DNA of 5,520 nt from an uncultured bacterium (GTDB lineage Bacteria > Patescibacteriota > Gracilibacteria > Absconditabacterales > Absconditicoccaceae): positions 1-5,520 of the forward strand of contig CAJAPL010000073.1 of NCBI GenBank assembly GCA_903943625.1, written 5' to 3'. How positions within the stretch are numbered: the first letter of the stretch is position 1; the number at the start of each line of letters is the position of its first letter. Of the stretch, positions 135 to 5,297 are shown one piece after another. The notes beneath the pieces are model-generated. The model saw nothing but the letters and a program-made list of their open reading frames with translations. It did not search any database and was not told the origin of the DNA. The translations under genes and the position numbers were made by a program.

Positions 135-1604
135 ATGAGATTGAAAGTCTGATTTTTGTTTATTATATTTATTGCTTATTCTTGATTTAGTTTCGCTTTT
201 GACATAGAAACTGATTGTGAACAGAGGACTTTTGTGGTAACTGCTTATTATTCGCCTATTAGTGGACAGGCTTTTTATTATAGACCAGATTATACACAGG
301 AGAAAATCCTTAACTGAGAATGAATAGCGTGAGCGGCTTGAAAAAAAGTCTTTAATGGTATGCTTGCTTGACCAAAATCTTATGAGTTTGGAAGTGTGGT
401 GTATTTCCCTTGATTTGGGGTATGAGAAATCGCTGATAGGGGTGGAGCCATTGTAAATTCATGAGAAAGAGGACATGTAGGAGACCGTATCGACATATGG
501 ATGTGAAGAGGTGAGGAGTGACTTGTAAGAGCTTTAACTTTTGGCAAACAGACATTGACCTGATATTTTTGCGGTATTGAGAAACTTAACTGAAATAATC
601 TAAAAATCTGACTTAACTTTGATCAAGTGCCTTTTTATGCTAATTTTTTTGATATTGCACTTTGGGTAGTTAAACTTTGATCATGAAGAAATGATATATG
701 GGTGGCAACTTTGCAAAAATACTTAATAAATTTGGGATATCTCAAAGCTGGGAAACAGACGTGATTTTTTGGTAAAGAGACCAAAGATGCTTTGTGTAGA
801 TACCAAGTAGCCAAATGAATTCTCTCTAAAAAGAATATTAACTGTTGATACTTTTCTTCTCCGACTAGTTTTGTGATGAAACAGGATATAAAAAATAAAT
901 GACTTTATCCCGTCGATCTTTGGGCTGTATGAACATTGGAAAATATAAAAAAAGATGCTAGGAAAACATTTCAACAGGTTGCATTAGCGCCTGAATTGAA
1001 GCAATATTTTAGCAAGCCATTTACCAAATCAGAGAAATCTGATGATATTGGAAAACTTCAAACAATTCTGACTAATTTATGATATTATACATGAAATATA
1101 AATTGAATATTCGATACCAAAACTATGGATGCTGTATATTCTTTTCAGAATAAGAACTGAATATTGTCCTTAAATTCAAATATATCGTCCAGATGACGGT
1201 TGTGACCAGCGACAAGAAATAAATTGAATGCGTTGATTAATGATAATGAGGGATTGCTGGTTTTGAAGATTAACGTTCAAGAAAATCCTCAGTCTTCGCC
1301 CTTGGCGAATCCAGCTCTACCGCTAAAGACGGCACATGCTTTATCAAGAAGCACAGAAAAGTTGTTTCAATTTTATAGACCATTCAAAAAATTAGATCAG
1401 AATTGAGAAATTAGGATATTACAGAAGTTTTTGAGCTGAGAAAAATTGTATTTTGGTAAGATAGACTGAGTTTATTCTTTGGGTGTTATCAATGCTTTAT
1501 GTGAATTTCAAAAGCAAAATAATTTAATTTCTTCTACGGATTCTTCTAGTCTGTGTTGATATTTCGGCCCCAAGACTAGGGATCTTATAAATAACAGACT
1601 ATAA
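135..1604 (+). CDS. Secreted 3D-domain (YuiC/MltA-fold) protein with three peptidoglycan-binding repeats
   Basis: 489 residues when TGA is read as Gly. The ATG follows an in-frame TAA by one codon, so no earlier start exists. Residues 1-21 look like a signal peptide (hydrophobic core, SFA at a likely cleavage site), so the protein is exported. Residues about 33-147 match the 3D domain, a double-psi beta-barrel shared by MltA and YuiC. Its three aspartates are visible as EIADRGGAI (D101) and GDRIDIWMG (D117, D120). In this family they act in lytic cleavage of peptidoglycan glycan strands. Three PG_binding_1-type repeats follow (about 188-250, 303-368, 424-488), each with an LQ..L...GY..G opening, a G.F...T..A...FQ middle and a closing GYF.P.T-like motif. 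A proline/serine-rich linker (about 370-423) precedes the last repeat. Tryptophan is TGG at 122, 177, 189 and 263; the single CGG (residue 355) aligns with Tyr in the other two repeats. Family assignment is firm; catalytic activity and target wall (own or host) are inferred. Confidence 0.85.
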
Positions 1605-1613
1605 GTTATCTGT
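1594..1613. terminator. Inverted repeat across two convergent stop codons, possible weak bidirectional terminator
   Basis: ACAGA (1594-1598) and TCTGT (1609-1613) form a 5-bp stem around a 10-base loop that contains both stop codons (TAA at 1602-1604 on plus, TTA at 1606-1608 for the minus gene). The tail-to-tail genes are one base apart, so any terminator must sit in or around the coding ends. There is no T-run on either side, so this is not a classical intrinsic terminator, and the stem is weak. Confidence 0.25.
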
Positions 1614-2991
1614 ATATGATAAAATCATCTGGGCATGGTCATGTGCCAAGAAGTATATTTCCTTTAAATTCTAACTTTGAAGACAAGTAATTTATATATT
1701 TTTTATACTCTTGAGGCAATTCATCTAGAGTTTTCATTCAAATGATGTTTTGTGAAAGATCAAAATTGGGACTATATTTGACTTTTAAGTTACTATAATC
1801 TTCCATCTGTGTCGGAACCTCATTTATATAGATTTTTCATTTAGTCTTATCTATATATCTTAATCCAACCTTTGCGTTCTTTCAAAGTTCGGGTAACAAA
1901 TCTACTTTGGTAAATATTATTATGTTTGTTTTGTTTGTTCTAAGAACTTTTCTTCATTCAACGGTATCTATATATCAAACGTCTCTAGGTCTTTTGGTCG
2001 TTGCTCAATATTCTCAAGACTTATTTCTATAATTGTTTGCAAATTCTTCATCCTCAAACTTTGTGGGGAAAAATCATCCTCATACCTTGGATTTTATTGA
2101 TTTAAATACAGCTATAGTAGTATTTATTTCTGGTAAATTAAGAGCGCTCATGGCTCCATTTGCCGAGGTGTCATTTGAGGTATTGTAGGGATACATTCAT
2201 CAGTCTGCTGCTAGCATTGCCGATTGTGAGAGTTCCAATAATATTCTTTTGTTTTCATATGCTGCTGTGTTGAGCAACATGTTTGTTGGGTCTATTTGTA
2301 TGTATTTCAAGTCAATCATATCCTTTAATAATTTTGTTTCCTCTTGTATTTCCTGTTCAATTTTTTCTATTACAAGTCACTTAAAAAGACTACAATTTAC
2401 ATTCATAAATTCATTTAGTTGATCAGAATTTGGATTTAATAGTATGTTAAAGTTTGGTCATGTCCTTAGGGCTTTCAATGCTGCTGTTGGGCCGATTCAT
2501 TTAGCTGTGGTTCATACCTTTTTCGATTTTAGTCATTCTATGATTCTGTCCAGTTCTTTTTGTAGGTTATCAAATATGATTTGTGCGTTTCATGCTATTA
2601 TTATTTTTTCTTTCATATTGTATCCATTCTCCTCTAGTTCTTGAATTTCTTTATATATTCAACTGATGTTAACGCTTCTTCATTGTCAAATATAAACTTT
2701 TGCCTTTTCTATTATTGCTCATCATGGTAATTCGTGTAGAGCGATTGATTTTCAATTTGTGCAAACGACTGTATGTCATGCGTTTCATCCTCATGATCAA
2801 ACTGCCACATAATCTACATTCTTGAATTGAGAAGTTACTTTTCATTTTCACTCATCTCATAGTTGTCATCCATATATTGCAACAACTGGCCCTCTTTCAA
2901 AAATCTTATCTTCAAAGTTTTCTCTGTTTAGGTTTTGTATTACCTTGATTGAGTTGTATTTAGACTTTTTCTTTGGTAAAAGTTTAGGCAT
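1606..2991 (-). CDS. purA: Divergent adenylosuccinate synthetase (PurA-like)
   Basis: 461 residues with TGA as Gly. PurA joins IMP and aspartate using GTP to form adenylosuccinate, the committed step to AMP. Visible motifs in order: QLGDEGKGK (43-51) with the catalytic Asp (46, E. coli D13); GGGNAGHT with the catalytic His (73, E. coli H41); GTTAKGIGP (160-168); an Arg at 176 fitting E. coli R143; Q256 and YPYNTS (267-272) of the IMP pocket; GATTKRPR (329-336) keeping both arginines of the aspartate loop; TKVD (361-364) for guanine recognition; GTGP (449-452). The key residues are intact, so activity is likely. Divergence shows in ELSQS where EGAQG is usual, Leu for Trp before GDEGKGK, and a lysine-rich N-terminal extension of about 34 residues. 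ATG 2991 is chosen because a strong promoter lies just upstream; an in-frame TTG at 3051 would fall inside its -35 box. No CGA or CGG and no Trp codon occurs. The retained Asp argues against PurZ (2-aminoadenylosuccinate synthetase), which has Ser there. Confidence 0.85.
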
Positions 2992-3028
2992 GGAAATATT
3001 TGATAGTGAAATAAAAAAAGACTGAGGG

Positions 3029-3056
3029 GTTATATCAATCTTAATAATCAAGTCAA
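3029..3056 (-). promoter_or_regulatory. Sigma-70-like promoter for purA
   Basis: On the minus strand a -35 TTGACT (3056-3051, 5 of 6 to TTGACA) is followed by a 16-base spacer and a -10 TATAAC (3034-3029, 5 of 6 to TATAAT). Transcription would begin near 3022, giving a leader of about 30 bases before the ATG at 2991. It lies in the 84-base gap after the CAP gene, so purA can be expressed independently of it. This is the best promoter match seen in the window. Confidence 0.5.
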
Positions 3057-3075
3057 GTAACTGTTTGGATATCGA

Positions 3076-3684
3076 CTAATCTATTTTTATTGTATTTACT
3101 CAATAGTGAGTAACCAAAAAATATCTATTGGTTTTTTTGTCTACTGAAATTCATACTCATATATTTGAAAAGTTTTTCATTATTATTCAATTATAATGTG
3201 GTTTTCGATTTTTATTCTTTTCGCTCATAAAAAATTTAAACGTACTTTTGATAGACTTTATAAGGTCTTGAGTGCAATCTAACTTACTACACTTATAATA
3301 TCATCGTCATATGCTTTCAGTAAATAGTGTCCCATTTATATCTTCAAAATTTACTCACAAATTTTCGAATCGTAACTTGATGTTTCAATAATTATAGTAT
3401 CCGTCTTTGGTGCTTCTTTGATGGGTAGATTTTCATAGTTTTGTGAGTTTATCCGACCGTGTTTTAGCTGTTTTGTTTAAATTGTTATCTAGAACATATC
3501 AGCTCAGTCAGTACTTTTCTCTCTCTTGATTGTGTCGTTTTGTCCGTTCTTGCTTTACGATATCTATATTCACATTTTCTATTTTGGAAAAATTATTTTT
3601 TTGACTTATCTCTGTGTTGTTACCTAGAGATATTCCCAAAGTACTAATAGTTAGACATACAATAATAAATACTCTTAATTTCAT
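3076..3684 (-). CDS. Secreted CAP/SCP-domain protein
   Basis: 202 residues with TGA as Gly. Residues 1-21 form a signal peptide (MKLR, then a hydrophobic stretch), so it is exported. The rest resembles the CAP (SCP/PR-1/antigen-5) fold: HNQER..YGL (51-60), a helix A.TxSDKL (73-80) where the family has A..WA, H88, FENLG (106-110) standing for GENL, PHY (162-164) and IGVG (175-178). H88, E107 and H163 fit the usual CAP cleft residues. Two cysteines (132, 137) may form a disulfide. Six codons are CGG or CGA (residues 47, 50, 76, 105, 127, 160) and none is TGG; residue 76 falls on the family's conserved Trp, which supports reading them as tryptophan. Arginines are all AGA (4, 55, 90, 187). CAP proteins serve in adhesion, lipid binding or protease-like roles; the role here is unknown, though a surface or host-contact function is plausible. 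Its own promoter candidate lies at 3714-3741. Confidence 0.75.
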
Positions 3685-3713
3685 TTTATTAAATTTAGTT
3701 AAATTATTTACTC

Positions 3714-3741
3714 ATTCTATTATTTGGCTAATTTAATACAA
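3714..3741 (-). promoter_or_regulatory. Candidate promoter for the CAP gene
   Basis: Minus strand: -35 TTGTAT (3741-3736, 4 of 6), 16-base spacer, -10 TAGAAT (3719-3714, 5 of 6). Start of transcription would be near 3707, about 22 bases before the ATG at 3684. Spacing and distance are reasonable, but the region is very AT-rich and chance matches are common. Confidence 0.35.
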
Positions 3742-3766
3742 GAATAAAAAAATCCCCATAGTAATA

Positions 3767-3794
3767 TTGAATTTCGAAATAATTTTCTTAATAA
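3767..3794 (+). promoter_or_regulatory. Weak candidate promoter for the YuiD-like/ftsQ direction
   Basis: Plus strand: -35 TTGAAT (3767-3772), 16-base spacer, -10-like TAATAA (3789-3794), with transcription starting near 3801 and a leader of about 19 bases. A perfect 10-base palindrome, ATTTCGAAAT (3771-3780), overlaps the -35 end and spacer, which is where a repressor site would act. The -10 match is poor. Confidence 0.22.
3771..3780. repeat. Perfect palindrome ATTTCGAAAT in the divergent promoter region
   Basis: A 10-base perfect dyad centred on TTCGAA between the CAP gene and the YuiD-like gene. The same TTCGAA core recurs in an imperfect dyad (CTAATTCGAACTTAG, 4441-4455) just before ftsQ. 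It could be an operator, but palindromes of this size arise by chance in AT-rich DNA. Confidence 0.3.
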
Positions 3795-3819
3795 GTGAGT
3801 ATTTATTATTCTTTTTTTG

Positions 3820-4311
3820 ATGTTTGATTATATTGTTAGCGTATTTACTGATATTTTTCAATGATGAATGAGGATGCATCCTATATTCATAGTTTTTATT
3901 GTTGGCTTCATTGTACAGTCAACAAAAGTTGTTATAGATTTTGTAAAATATAAGCGTTTGTATCGGTGACATATTTTTACTGCTTGAGGATTCCCATCTT
4001 TTCATAGTTGAATTGCCACTAGTGTAACCTTGATAGCATTGTTAGAATATGGCTTTGATAGTACTATTTTTGCGATAGCTTTTGCTTTTTCTATTTTGTT
4101 CGCATATGACGCTATGAATCTAAGATATGAAGCAGGACAACATGCACATTATATAAATGATTTGAGAGTAGATTTGCAGTGAGTCCTAACAAAGAAAGAA
4201 AAATGACCTTTAAAAGAGAGGATTTGACATACACGAGAAGAAGTCGCTTGATGAATATTATTTTGACTGGTTCTGACATTTTTGTTGTATTATTATTTTG
4301 TAGTAGCCTAA
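3820..4311 (+). CDS. YuiD-like divergent PAP2 family membrane protein (DUF212)
   Basis: 163 residues with TGA as Gly. The signature GGFPSFHSG (56-64) matches the GGMPSSHSA motif of the divergent PAP2 (acid phosphatase/vanadium haloperoxidase-related) family, with the His at 62. It is followed by the second family motif YDAMNLRYEAGQHAHYIN (96-113, usual form YDA.GVRR.AG.QA...N) and the third, IGHTxEEVAGG (135-145, usual LGHTP.EV.AG). Hydrophobic segments at about 20-40, 64-78, 80-96 and 145-163 make it an integral membrane protein. Length is typical. Relatives are presumed lipid- or isoprenoid-phosphate phosphatases, but no substrate is established. CGG at residue 49 lies seven positions before the GG motif, where relatives often have Trp. 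CGA at 139 replaces the usual Pro and is uninformative. Start: ATG 3820; no other ATG exists back to the TAA at 3745, and M17 or M19 would remove part of the N-terminus. It probably heads the rightward unit that includes ftsQ. Confidence 0.8.
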
Positions 4312-4460: not shown

Positions 4461-5297
4461 ATGATAAATATAGTAAAACAAAGGCCCTTTAGAAGAAAAC
4501 ATAAAAGTTTTTTTGTTAAATGAAATATCCCTGTAAAAATACCATTTAAAACAATAATGAGATGAATTTTGTTGTTCGCCCTTGCATTTGCTTTTATTTA
4601 CTTCCTTATTTATATTTTTAGATCAACGCTATTTAAGCCTGAATATTATATTTACAATATTAGGTATTCTGCTGAAAGTGTGAAAAACTTTGATGATCCT
4701 GTTTTGTATAAAATTATAAAGAATCAAGCTAAATGAGAAAATTACTATGTTCTGAAACATTTCAAGAGAAATGATATTTTGAACTTAATGAGGGTTAAGT
4801 TCCCAGTCGTAAAGGATATTGAATTCCATTATTCTCAAAAAAACACTTTGGATGTTAAGGTTATTTTTGATAAGGTAGATCTTCGTTTTAGGTTGTGAAA
4901 TAAAATATTTGGTTTATATAAGTGAAATACATTTTTGCTCTATAGCTGAAATGTTTTGTGAGAGGGTAGCGATGTTGTTGAATTACCATGATATCTTTCT
5001 GGTTTAAATAATTTGGATTGATTGTTTTTTAATTATTCTTATGAAGATTTCCTACTAAATGTAGATATCATTTCTCAGGTTTTTGGAGATAAAATTCGTT
5101 TGGTGTATTTGCCTGGTTCTAAGAGAATTGCTGTATTTGTGGGGAAATCCAAAGTTGTTTATATAAGTTTGCAGAAAGATATAAAATTACAGATGACTGA
5201 ATACGATTTTTTAAGAAAATATGATCCGGGGTTTGCTAGCTATATTGAAATAGATCTATGAAGTCTAGAATGAAGTATGGCTATTGTAAAGAAATAG
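4461..5297 (+). CDS. ftsQ: FtsQ/DivIB-like cell division protein
   Basis: 278 residues with TGA as Gly. The ATG directly follows an in-frame TAG, which fixes the start. Topology is that of FtsQ/DivIB: a basic cytoplasmic tail (RRKHK, about 1-32), one transmembrane helix (about 33-53), then an extracytoplasmic part. The region about 60-139 fits a POTRA domain, ending in FPVVKDIEFHYSQKNTLDVKV (114-134), closely following the FtsQ pattern of FPWV..V...R..PNTL.I.V. The next segment has the usual NKIFGLYKGN strand pair and a beta domain, ending in YIEIDL (261-266), like the family's terminal Y.ID motif. FtsQ bridges early and late divisome proteins (FtsB, FtsL) at the septum. Sequence conservation in this family is low, so the assignment rests on topology, the POTRA end motif and length. 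It has no CGA, CGG or TGG codon. It follows the YuiD-like gene by 149 bases and precedes sufS by 56. Confidence 0.7.

Follow-up and report, generated by a model that had tools for sequence, protein, structure and literature searches.

The window, by which we mean the whole analysed stretch of 5,520 nucleotides, carries six genes: a gene for a 3D-domain protein with peptidoglycan-binding repeats, purA, genes for a CAP/SCP-like protein and a YuiD-like protein, an FtsQ-like gene and a sufS-like fragment. CGA and CGG are arginine codons in nearly all life. When the window is translated with table 25, nine such codons stand in frame in three of its genes (Table 1), a count and placement that the original prediction had given correctly, together with the CGG triplets at 1197-1199, 3457-3459 and 3964-3966; purA, the FtsQ-like gene and the sufS-like fragment contain none in these frames. 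Summed over the six genes, Arg is encoded by AGA (38), AGG (12) and CGT (4), with no CGC.

Placement of the source genome in Absconditabacterales/SR1 rests on the names of homologues: the best match to YuiD is 90% identical and carries the name Candidatus Absconditicoccaceae, further ones are named candidate division SR1 or Absconditabacterales, and the homologues of its tryptophanyl-tRNA synthetase (TrpRS) include RAAC1_SR1_1 at 67%. The nearest named genome, which belongs to the same genus and is the single named relative from a contig scan, is labelled Gracilibacteria.

Table 1. Genes of the window and their in-frame CGA and CGG codons, with the codons or residues found in relatives (G001 and G002, same-genus relatives; G004, G007 and G020, other relatives; G025 and G037, outgroups).
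Feature	Start	End	Strand	Remarks
3D-domain / peptidoglycan-binding-repeat protein	135	1604	+	table 25; one CGG; orthologue in L056 at 58-61% identity
CGG codon 355, 3D protein	1197	1199	+	taken as Trp; TGG in G001, TAC (Tyr) in G007
purA (adenylosuccinate synthetase-like)	1606	3051	-	table 25; no CGA or CGG; anchor for the named relative
CAP/SCP-like protein	3076	3684	-	CGA four times, CGG twice; TGG absent
CGG codon 47, CAP	3544	3546	-	CGA in G001, G002, G020, G004
CGA codon 50, CAP	3535	3537	-	Leu, Leu, Lys, CGA in G001, G002, G020, G004; uninformative
CGG codon 76, CAP	3457	3459	-	A..W position; CGA in G001, G002, G020, G004
CGA codon 105, CAP	3370	3372	-	taken as Trp; TGG in G001 and G002, CGA in G020 and G004
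CGA codon 127, CAP	3304	3306	-	CGA in G001, G002, G020; Tyr in G004
CGA codon 160, CAP	3205	3207	-	Tyr, Leu, Lys, Gly, Ile in G001, G002, G020, G004, G007; uninformative
YuiD-like DUF212 (divergent PAP2) protein	3829	4311	+	CGG and CGA once each; TGG absent; start uncertain (3817 is the alternative), codons counted from 3829
CGG codon 46, YuiD	3964	3966	+	taken as Trp; TGG in G001, G020 and outgroups G037 and G025; CGA in G002
CGA codon 136, YuiD	4234	4236	+	taken as Trp; TGG in G002; other rows Pro, Phe, Tyr, Val or Ile

The nine positions were aligned with eight relatives, some of the genes being found in only part of them. At four positions (3D 355, CAP 105, YuiD 46 and YuiD 136) at least one relative has TGG, and at none of the nine does any aligned row have an Arg codon. 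Both same-genus relatives have CGA at CAP 47, 76 and 127. The CGG at CAP 76 had been proposed to fall on the conserved A..W position of the family, and its place there is consistent with Trp; since four relatives have CGA and not TGG, however, it gives no independent evidence. CAP 50 and 160 are variable, each with Lys in one relative. In an alignment of 28 DUF212 rows, from which two loci without a match were dropped, neither YuiD 46 nor YuiD 136 is opposite an Arg codon; position 46 has Lys in two outgroup rows and Thr in one, and position 136 has Arg or Lys in no row. Columns dominated by Arg or Lys had been named beforehand as the sign of a wrong assignment, and across the aligned homologues Lys appears at CAP 50, CAP 160 and YuiD 46, Arg codons nowhere. 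Nine codons alone are thin evidence; the pattern is more than chance because a sample of about a fifth of the genome (GC 0.296), covering 128 CGA and CGG sites, has no Arg codon opposite them.

Over all sampled relatives, TGG is found in some relative at 45 of 100 CGA sites and at 11 of 28 CGG sites, or 56 of the 128 pooled, and an Arg codon at 0/100, 0/28 and 0/128, respectively. With CGA and CGG (together CGR) masked, the 61 CGA columns against G001 hold 39 CGR, 11 TGG and no Arg, and the 21 CGG columns hold 13 CGR, 5 TGG and no Arg; against G007, 16 of 27 CGA columns are TGG and none is Arg, while the four CGG columns have neither TGG nor Arg. Among 62 codons tested, a departure from table 25 was flagged for CGA and CGG only. 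The codons AGA, AGG, CGT and CGC pair mostly with Arg in the same alignments, CGT in 16 of 21 and CGC in 15 of 18 columns against G001. In the family as a whole, some relative has an Arg codon at 3/487 CGA sites and 1/74 CGG sites. The family f14 (G036), which belongs to the same class and also has TGA within its genes, provides an internal control: there, unlike in the genome studied here, CGA remains Arg (7 of 8 sites, with one tie) and the UCG tRNA is of the Arg type.

It could be argued that CGA and CGG still encode Arg and that the nine are unremarkable arginines, most of them at the surface of fast-evolving proteins. ARAGORN does label the UCG and CCG tRNAs as Arg, from the anticodon, and Lys is present at CAP 50 and 160 in one relative. 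Against this stand the 0/128 sites with an Arg codon, set against TGG at 56, the pairing of the other four codons with Arg in the same alignments, and the identity bases of the two tRNAs. We therefore reject the Arg reading for this genome on the 0/128 count, and regard its survival as extremely improbable; the original proposal that both codons are read as Trp is supported by the same sites. Its companion claim, TGA as Gly, agrees with the open frames under table 25 and with the columns in which TGA is aligned to Gly (513 of 579 against G001, 207 of 262 against G007), a comparison that is partly circular as the relatives were themselves translated with table 25.

The prediction had held that only CGG was firmly supported. 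Both codons are, and CGA more so: the nine non-CGR columns of CGG against G001 and G007 include three Trp and three Tyr, a thinner support than that of CGA. This bears on the alternative in which the change is confined to CGG, as reported for some Gracilibacteria and for Anaerococcus, CGA being still Arg or ambiguous. Such states are known, since three Firmicutes clades are reported as CGG-only and Gracilibacteria as mixed (PMC8629427), and f12 (G034) has a CCG tRNA with A1:U72 and G73, its UCG tRNA not having been found and its sample holding no CGR sites. In the genome under study, however, the support for CGA exceeds that for CGG and a UCG tRNA with G73 and U20 is present. We rejected the Anaerococcus type because CGA behaves as Trp and the UCG tRNA exists, and we see hardly any chance for it.

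The tRNAs point in the same direction. The CCG tRNA has A1:U72, U20 and G73; the UCG tRNA has G1:C72, U20 and G73, its first pair differing from the A/G1:U72 of the other 15 UCG tRNAs of the family; the GCG tRNA is Arg-like, with A20 and A73. The CCG and UCG tRNAs of family and outgroups were found by similarity to those of this genome. CCG tRNAs were found in 14 of 24 family genomes (the query matched in 18 genomes, three of the matches being other tRNAs: Met in G011 and G033, Trp in G026), all 14 with A1:U72 and G73 and without A20. UCG tRNAs were found in 16 of 24, all 16 with G73 and without A20, three of them being read by eye after the script had misregistered them. In the outgroups A73 and A20 are present in 4/4 CCG/UCG tRNAs. 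A tRNA-Arg with either anticodon had been named as evidence against the reassignment; both tRNAs are there and bear the ARAGORN label Arg, yet under the rules of PMC8629427 they carry Trp-type identity bases. No UCA tRNA was found in this genome, and four genomes searched with a narrow pattern for tRNA-Gly(UCA) gave no match; a further tRNA or a second TrpRS may possibly lie beyond the assembly, which is 88% complete.

The UCG tRNA is closest to an outgroup tRNA-Arg(UCG), with 55 of 71 bases matched, and it looks less like a mutated tRNA-Trp than like a former tRNA-Arg(UCG) whose identity was switched in place. This resemblance, and an anticodon that is that of tRNA-Arg, would fit an ambiguous reading in which both tRNAs, keeping C35 and G36, are still charged to some degree by ArgRS, so that CGA and CGG are part Trp and part Arg. 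The absence of A20 from every family UCG and CCG tRNA found speaks against it, as do CGR codons at strictly conserved Trp positions: the TrpRS gene itself, which runs into a contig end, carries CGG where E. coli has W93, and 12/12 outgroups have W in this column (the divergent TrpRS of G025 and G031 are outside these 12, which also served for the enrichment test of contact columns, and inside the 14 outgroups considered below). We consider ambiguity unlikely. Taken on sequence evidence, CGA and CGG are very likely read as Trp by tRNAs with UCG and CCG anticodons, predicted to be charged by TrpRS; AGA, AGG, CGT and CGC likely encode Arg, and TGA likely Gly.

The code itself is already known. 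CGA and CGG to Trp, with UGA to Gly, was reported in 2021 for Absconditabacterales/SR1 (Shulgina and Eddy 2021, PMC8629427), exactly the reassignment in Absconditabacteria that the original prediction had attributed to a computational screen; the same paper states that experimental confirmation is still needed. This genome shares with the Absconditabacteria code described there the move of both codons to Trp, UGA as Gly, a low GC, a GCG tRNA for CGU/CGC, and UCG and CCG tRNAs with G73 and not A20. With Anaerococcus and the RFN20 Bacilli, according to that paper, it shares the reading of CGG as Trp by means of a CCG tRNA that has Trp features; in those clades, however, CGA stays Arg and the UCG tRNA is missing, whereas here both codons move. 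UGA as Gly is also shared with the Gracilibacteria codes, CGG being reported as Trp in some members (PMC8629427; PMC13092985), and the nearest named genome carries the Gracilibacteria label; the window's other named homologues belong to Absconditicoccaceae, Absconditabacterales and SR1.

What goes beyond the published account is the dominance of CGA and CGG among putative Trp codons, a later stage than the reported rarity, and a set of changes at TrpRS contacts. PMC8629427 describes both codons as rare in Absconditabacteria, CGA remaining under 37 per 10,000 in all its species. Unlike that set, the conserved ORFs of this genome have 51.0 CGA and 15.6 CGG per 10,000 codons, together more than TGG (40.2), as ORF-based counts and not the Pfam-aligned counts of that study; of the 308 putative Trp codons in these ORFs, 192 are CGA or CGG.

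In the E. coli TrpRS-tRNA-Trp complex, as described in PMC12135181, Ser227 contacts A36, Asp226, T225 and K274 contact C35, Gly271 contacts C34, and Q152 and E155 contact G73. By alignment, T225, K274, Q152 and E155 are in the same places in the TrpRS of this genome, whereas G271 is replaced by Lys, D226 by Asn and S227 by Thr, and these three contacts are replaced in most of the family. We compared 22 family TrpRS (the second TrpRS of G013 was left out, and none was matched in G017 or G018) with 14 outgroups. The literature searched contained no report of TrpRS anticodon-contact changes in Absconditabacterales, and the terms 'tryptophanyl-tRNA synthetase' and 'TrpRS' do not occur in the part of PMC8629427 that was available.

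These changes may be drift in a fast-evolving, reduced genome, unrelated to the NCG anticodons, and we hold this to be a substantial possibility, somewhat short of even. The contact columns are not enriched among losses (3/6 lost in the family, compared with 28/115 outgroup-conserved columns overall, P=0.15), and the residues are retained in part, S227 in four of the 22, D226 in eight and G271 in two, some of these genomes having Trp-type tRNAs. The family is moreover one clade, so that the change counts once. On the other hand, 22/22 family TrpRS have a change at one or more of the three residues, against 5/14 outgroups, and 20/22 at no fewer than two, against 2/14, and T225, K274 and E155 are constant in all 22 and in 120/120 database homologues, Q152 being changed in one of the 22. 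CGR codons are also less used in the genomes that retain S227 (P=0.011, one-sided, over all ORFs and with kinship ignored), the codon counts of most relatives coming from roughly 14 to 40 kb of each genome; the conserved-ORF version (P=0.037) was not relied on, G016, without conserved ORFs, having been scored 0.

A mechanism for the reading of CGA and CGG as Trp can be proposed on these elements. ArgRS would reject both tRNAs because A20 is gone, and TrpRS would accept NCG tRNAs because CCA, CCG and UCG all have C35 and its strict reading of A36 and C34 may have been relaxed. We see about an even chance that such a rebuilt TrpRS, no longer demanding A36 and C34 and keeping its grip on C35 and G73, charges CCA, CCG and UCG tRNAs that are partly old arginine tRNAs, and that CGA and CGG, having overtaken UGG, represent a completed takeover and not an early stage.

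For the annotation of this group, proteins translated with table 25 would show Arg instead of Trp at CGA and CGG. For its biology, this is a sense-codon reassignment at an advanced stage, in which CGA and CGG are most of the putative Trp codons in conserved ORFs, and three TrpRS residues, mapped by alignment to a solved complex from E. coli, pinpoint a candidate specificity change that bears on how a synthetase comes to accept the anticodon of another amino acid.

The assembly behind the window comprises 1.01 Mb in 216 contigs, is 88% complete, and includes the 5,520 bases of the window as its contig 73. Codon meaning was examined in the window together with 40 contigs (211.5 kb, 196 ORFs, 60,089 codons): the ORFs were aligned to relatives, both CGA and CGG (CGR) being masked as X on either side, and only columns with ungapped, conserved flanks were kept. 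Against G001, a same-genus relative, the 61 CGA columns included 39 CGR, 11 TGG and no arginine codons, and the 21 CGG columns 13 CGR, five TGG and again no arginine codons; against G007, a family member of another genus, TGG stood at 16 of 27 CGA columns, with no Arg, and the four CGG columns held two Tyr, one Phe and one CGR, with neither TGG nor Arg. Over all sampled relatives, 45 of 100 CGA and 11 of 28 CGG sites had TGG in at least one relative and no site had an arginine codon in any, while 33 of these CGA and 12 of these CGG sites had nothing but CGR in the relatives. Of 62 codons, CGA and CGG alone were marked as deviating from table 25 (TGA as glycine); in columns of this kind AGA, AGG, CGT and CGC stood mostly opposite Arg. 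Family-wide, an arginine codon occurred in some relative at 3 of 487 CGA and 1 of 74 CGG sites. The method is able to return arginine, because in the control G036, a genome of family f14 with TGA codons inside its tryptophanyl-tRNA synthetase (TrpRS) frame, CGA was opposite Arg at seven of eight sites, with one tie. In the TrpRS gene of the source genome, CGG stands where E. coli has W93, a site that is Trp in 12 of 12 outgroups.

Genes of the window in the table 25 reading
Feature	Coordinates	Strand	Remark
3D-domain/peptidoglycan-binding protein	135-1604	+	
purA	1606-3051	-	
CAP-like protein	3076-3684	-	
DUF212/YuiD protein	about 3829-4311	+	DUF212 matched to its family
FtsQ-like protein	4461-5297	+	
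sufS-like gene			start only

The 3D, purA, CAP, FtsQ-like and sufS-like genes are presumably what their names say, these being taken from the original prediction or from inspection of the sequence. That prediction, of CGA and CGG read as tryptophan, drew on nine in-frame codons, all of which were recovered at their coordinates when the window was read with table 25. When they were aligned with homologues from eight relatives, individual genes being missing from some of these, no aligned row had an arginine codon at any of the nine positions, and TGG was present in at least one relative at four of them (3D codon 355, CAP 105, YuiD 46 and YuiD 136). CAP 76, proposed as the A..W position of its family, is CGA in all four relatives aligned there, and it is therefore compatible with Trp but no proof alone. 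CAP 50 and CAP 160 vary, one relative having Lys. The 28 rows of a DUF212 alignment mostly show Trp, CGR, Leu, Ile, Phe or Val at YuiD 46, apart from two outgroups with Lys and one relative with Thr; at YuiD 136 they show Pro, Phe, Tyr, Val, Ile or Trp. The 3D-protein gene of a same-genus relative (L056) has one in-frame stop, between GIG and IADRGG.

The Rfam tRNA model gave 33 matches over cut-off in the source genome, and ARAGORN labelled its UCG, CCG, GCG and CCU tRNAs as Arg. Under the identity rule in a passage of PMC8629427, by which G73 without A20 marks a Trp tRNA, the UCG (G1:C72, U20, G73), CCG (A1:U72, U20, G73) and CCA (A1:U72, G73) tRNAs are Trp-type and the GCG tRNA (A20, A73) is Arg-type. 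The search for UCG and CCG tRNAs with Trp identity bases found both, with G73 and U20, as the prediction would have it. Using these two as queries (one UCG tRNA was recovered by the CCG query), 14 of 24 family genomes, counting the source genome, yielded CCG tRNAs and 16 yielded UCG tRNAs, where no match is not to be read as absence; all 14 and all 16 have G73 and no A20 (three UCG read by eye). The outgroup CCG/UCG tRNAs found have A73 and A20 in four of four. Outside the family, the closest match of the UCG tRNA was an outgroup tRNA-Arg(UCG), with 55 of 71 bases matched, and the genome's own tRNA-Trp was absent from its top twelve matches; the CCG tRNA gave no such clear result. The UCG tRNA (L019) has G1:C72 versus G1:U72 in same-genus relatives (L165, L166). 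Each of the UCG and CCG genes is present twice in the assembly (L019/L020, L029/L030), with upstream flank in common and one copy near a contig end, which is likely an assembly duplication. Neither UCA (Gly) nor UCU (Arg) anticodons were seen among the source-genome tRNAs read, probably owing to assembly gaps.

Two relatives from other families have TGA inside genes. In G036 of family f14 (L257, L230) the UCG tRNA has A73 and A20; since CGA stays Arg there alongside this Arg-type tRNA, the changes of UGA and of CGR appear to be separable. In G034 of family f12 (L254) a CCG tRNA has A1:U72 and G73 but also A20, and no UCG tRNA was found among 26 read; an intermediate state, CGG-only or ambiguous, is possible. 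UCA was also unseen among these 26 tRNAs and 34 of G036, counting only those plainly named by ARAGORN.

TrpRS was found over the family cut-off in 38 of 40 genomes searched, all except G017 and G018. As described in part of PMC12135181, the E. coli enzyme reads C35 and A36 through Thr225, Asp226, Ser227 and Lys274, contacts C34 through Tyr270 and Gly271, and reads G73 through Gln152/Glu155. When the family enzymes are aligned with that of E. coli, Thr225 and Lys274 are kept in 22 of 22 genomes, Ser227 in four, Asp226 in eight and Gly271 in two, versus 11, 10 and 12 of 12 outgroups for the latter three. The source genome has Thr225, Asn226, Thr227, Tyr270, Lys271 and Lys274, with Gln152 and Glu155 kept. 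Among the best 120 of 7,994 database homologues of G001 TrpRS, Q152, E155, T225 and K274 are present in all 120, Ser227 in seven and Lys at 271 in 117. These residues fit a pocket that would still read C35 and G73, common to the CCA, CCG and UCG tRNAs, and would no longer require A36 or C34, which is testable. The contact columns are not statistically enriched in changes relative to other changed columns (P=0.15), and, the family being one lineage, the change counts only once. Trp-type tRNAs also occur in genomes with Ser227, G007 for example, and the four genomes with this residue use fewer CGR codons (P=0.011, kinship uncorrected). G013 has two TrpRS genes over the cut-off (C1:8115-9086 and C5:255139-256104; L155, L286), the second with T-H-S at 225-227; this might be an enzyme set aside for the new tRNAs, or simply a duplicate.

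Within the ORFs of the source genome that have a homologue in some other sampled genome (28,835 codons), there are 147 CGA, 45 CGG and 116 TGG (51.0, 15.6 and 40.2 per 10,000), so that 192 of the 308 putative Trp codons are CGR; across 21 family genomes with such ORFs this share lies between about 0.1 (G021) and 0.8 (G004, 32 of 40 codons). A passage of PMC8629427 likens CGR changes to earlier stages, with CGA below 37 per 10,000 in all its species and frequencies near UGG in one; its counts come from Pfam alignments, those given here from ORFs. In the literature searched, which covered few subscription journals and no bioRxiv preprints, neither the TrpRS change nor CGR as the majority of Trp codons was found described.

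The closest named proteins belong to Candidatus Absconditicoccaceae, candidate division SR1 and Absconditabacterales, and also to a same-genus relative labelled Gracilibacteria. CGA and CGG as Trp with UGA as Gly are reported for Absconditabacteria in a section of PMC8629427, and CGA/CGG as Trp is repeated for Absconditabacterales in a portion of PMC13092985. Given these homologues and the former report, the code is already published and the source genome is a further member of the group that uses it.
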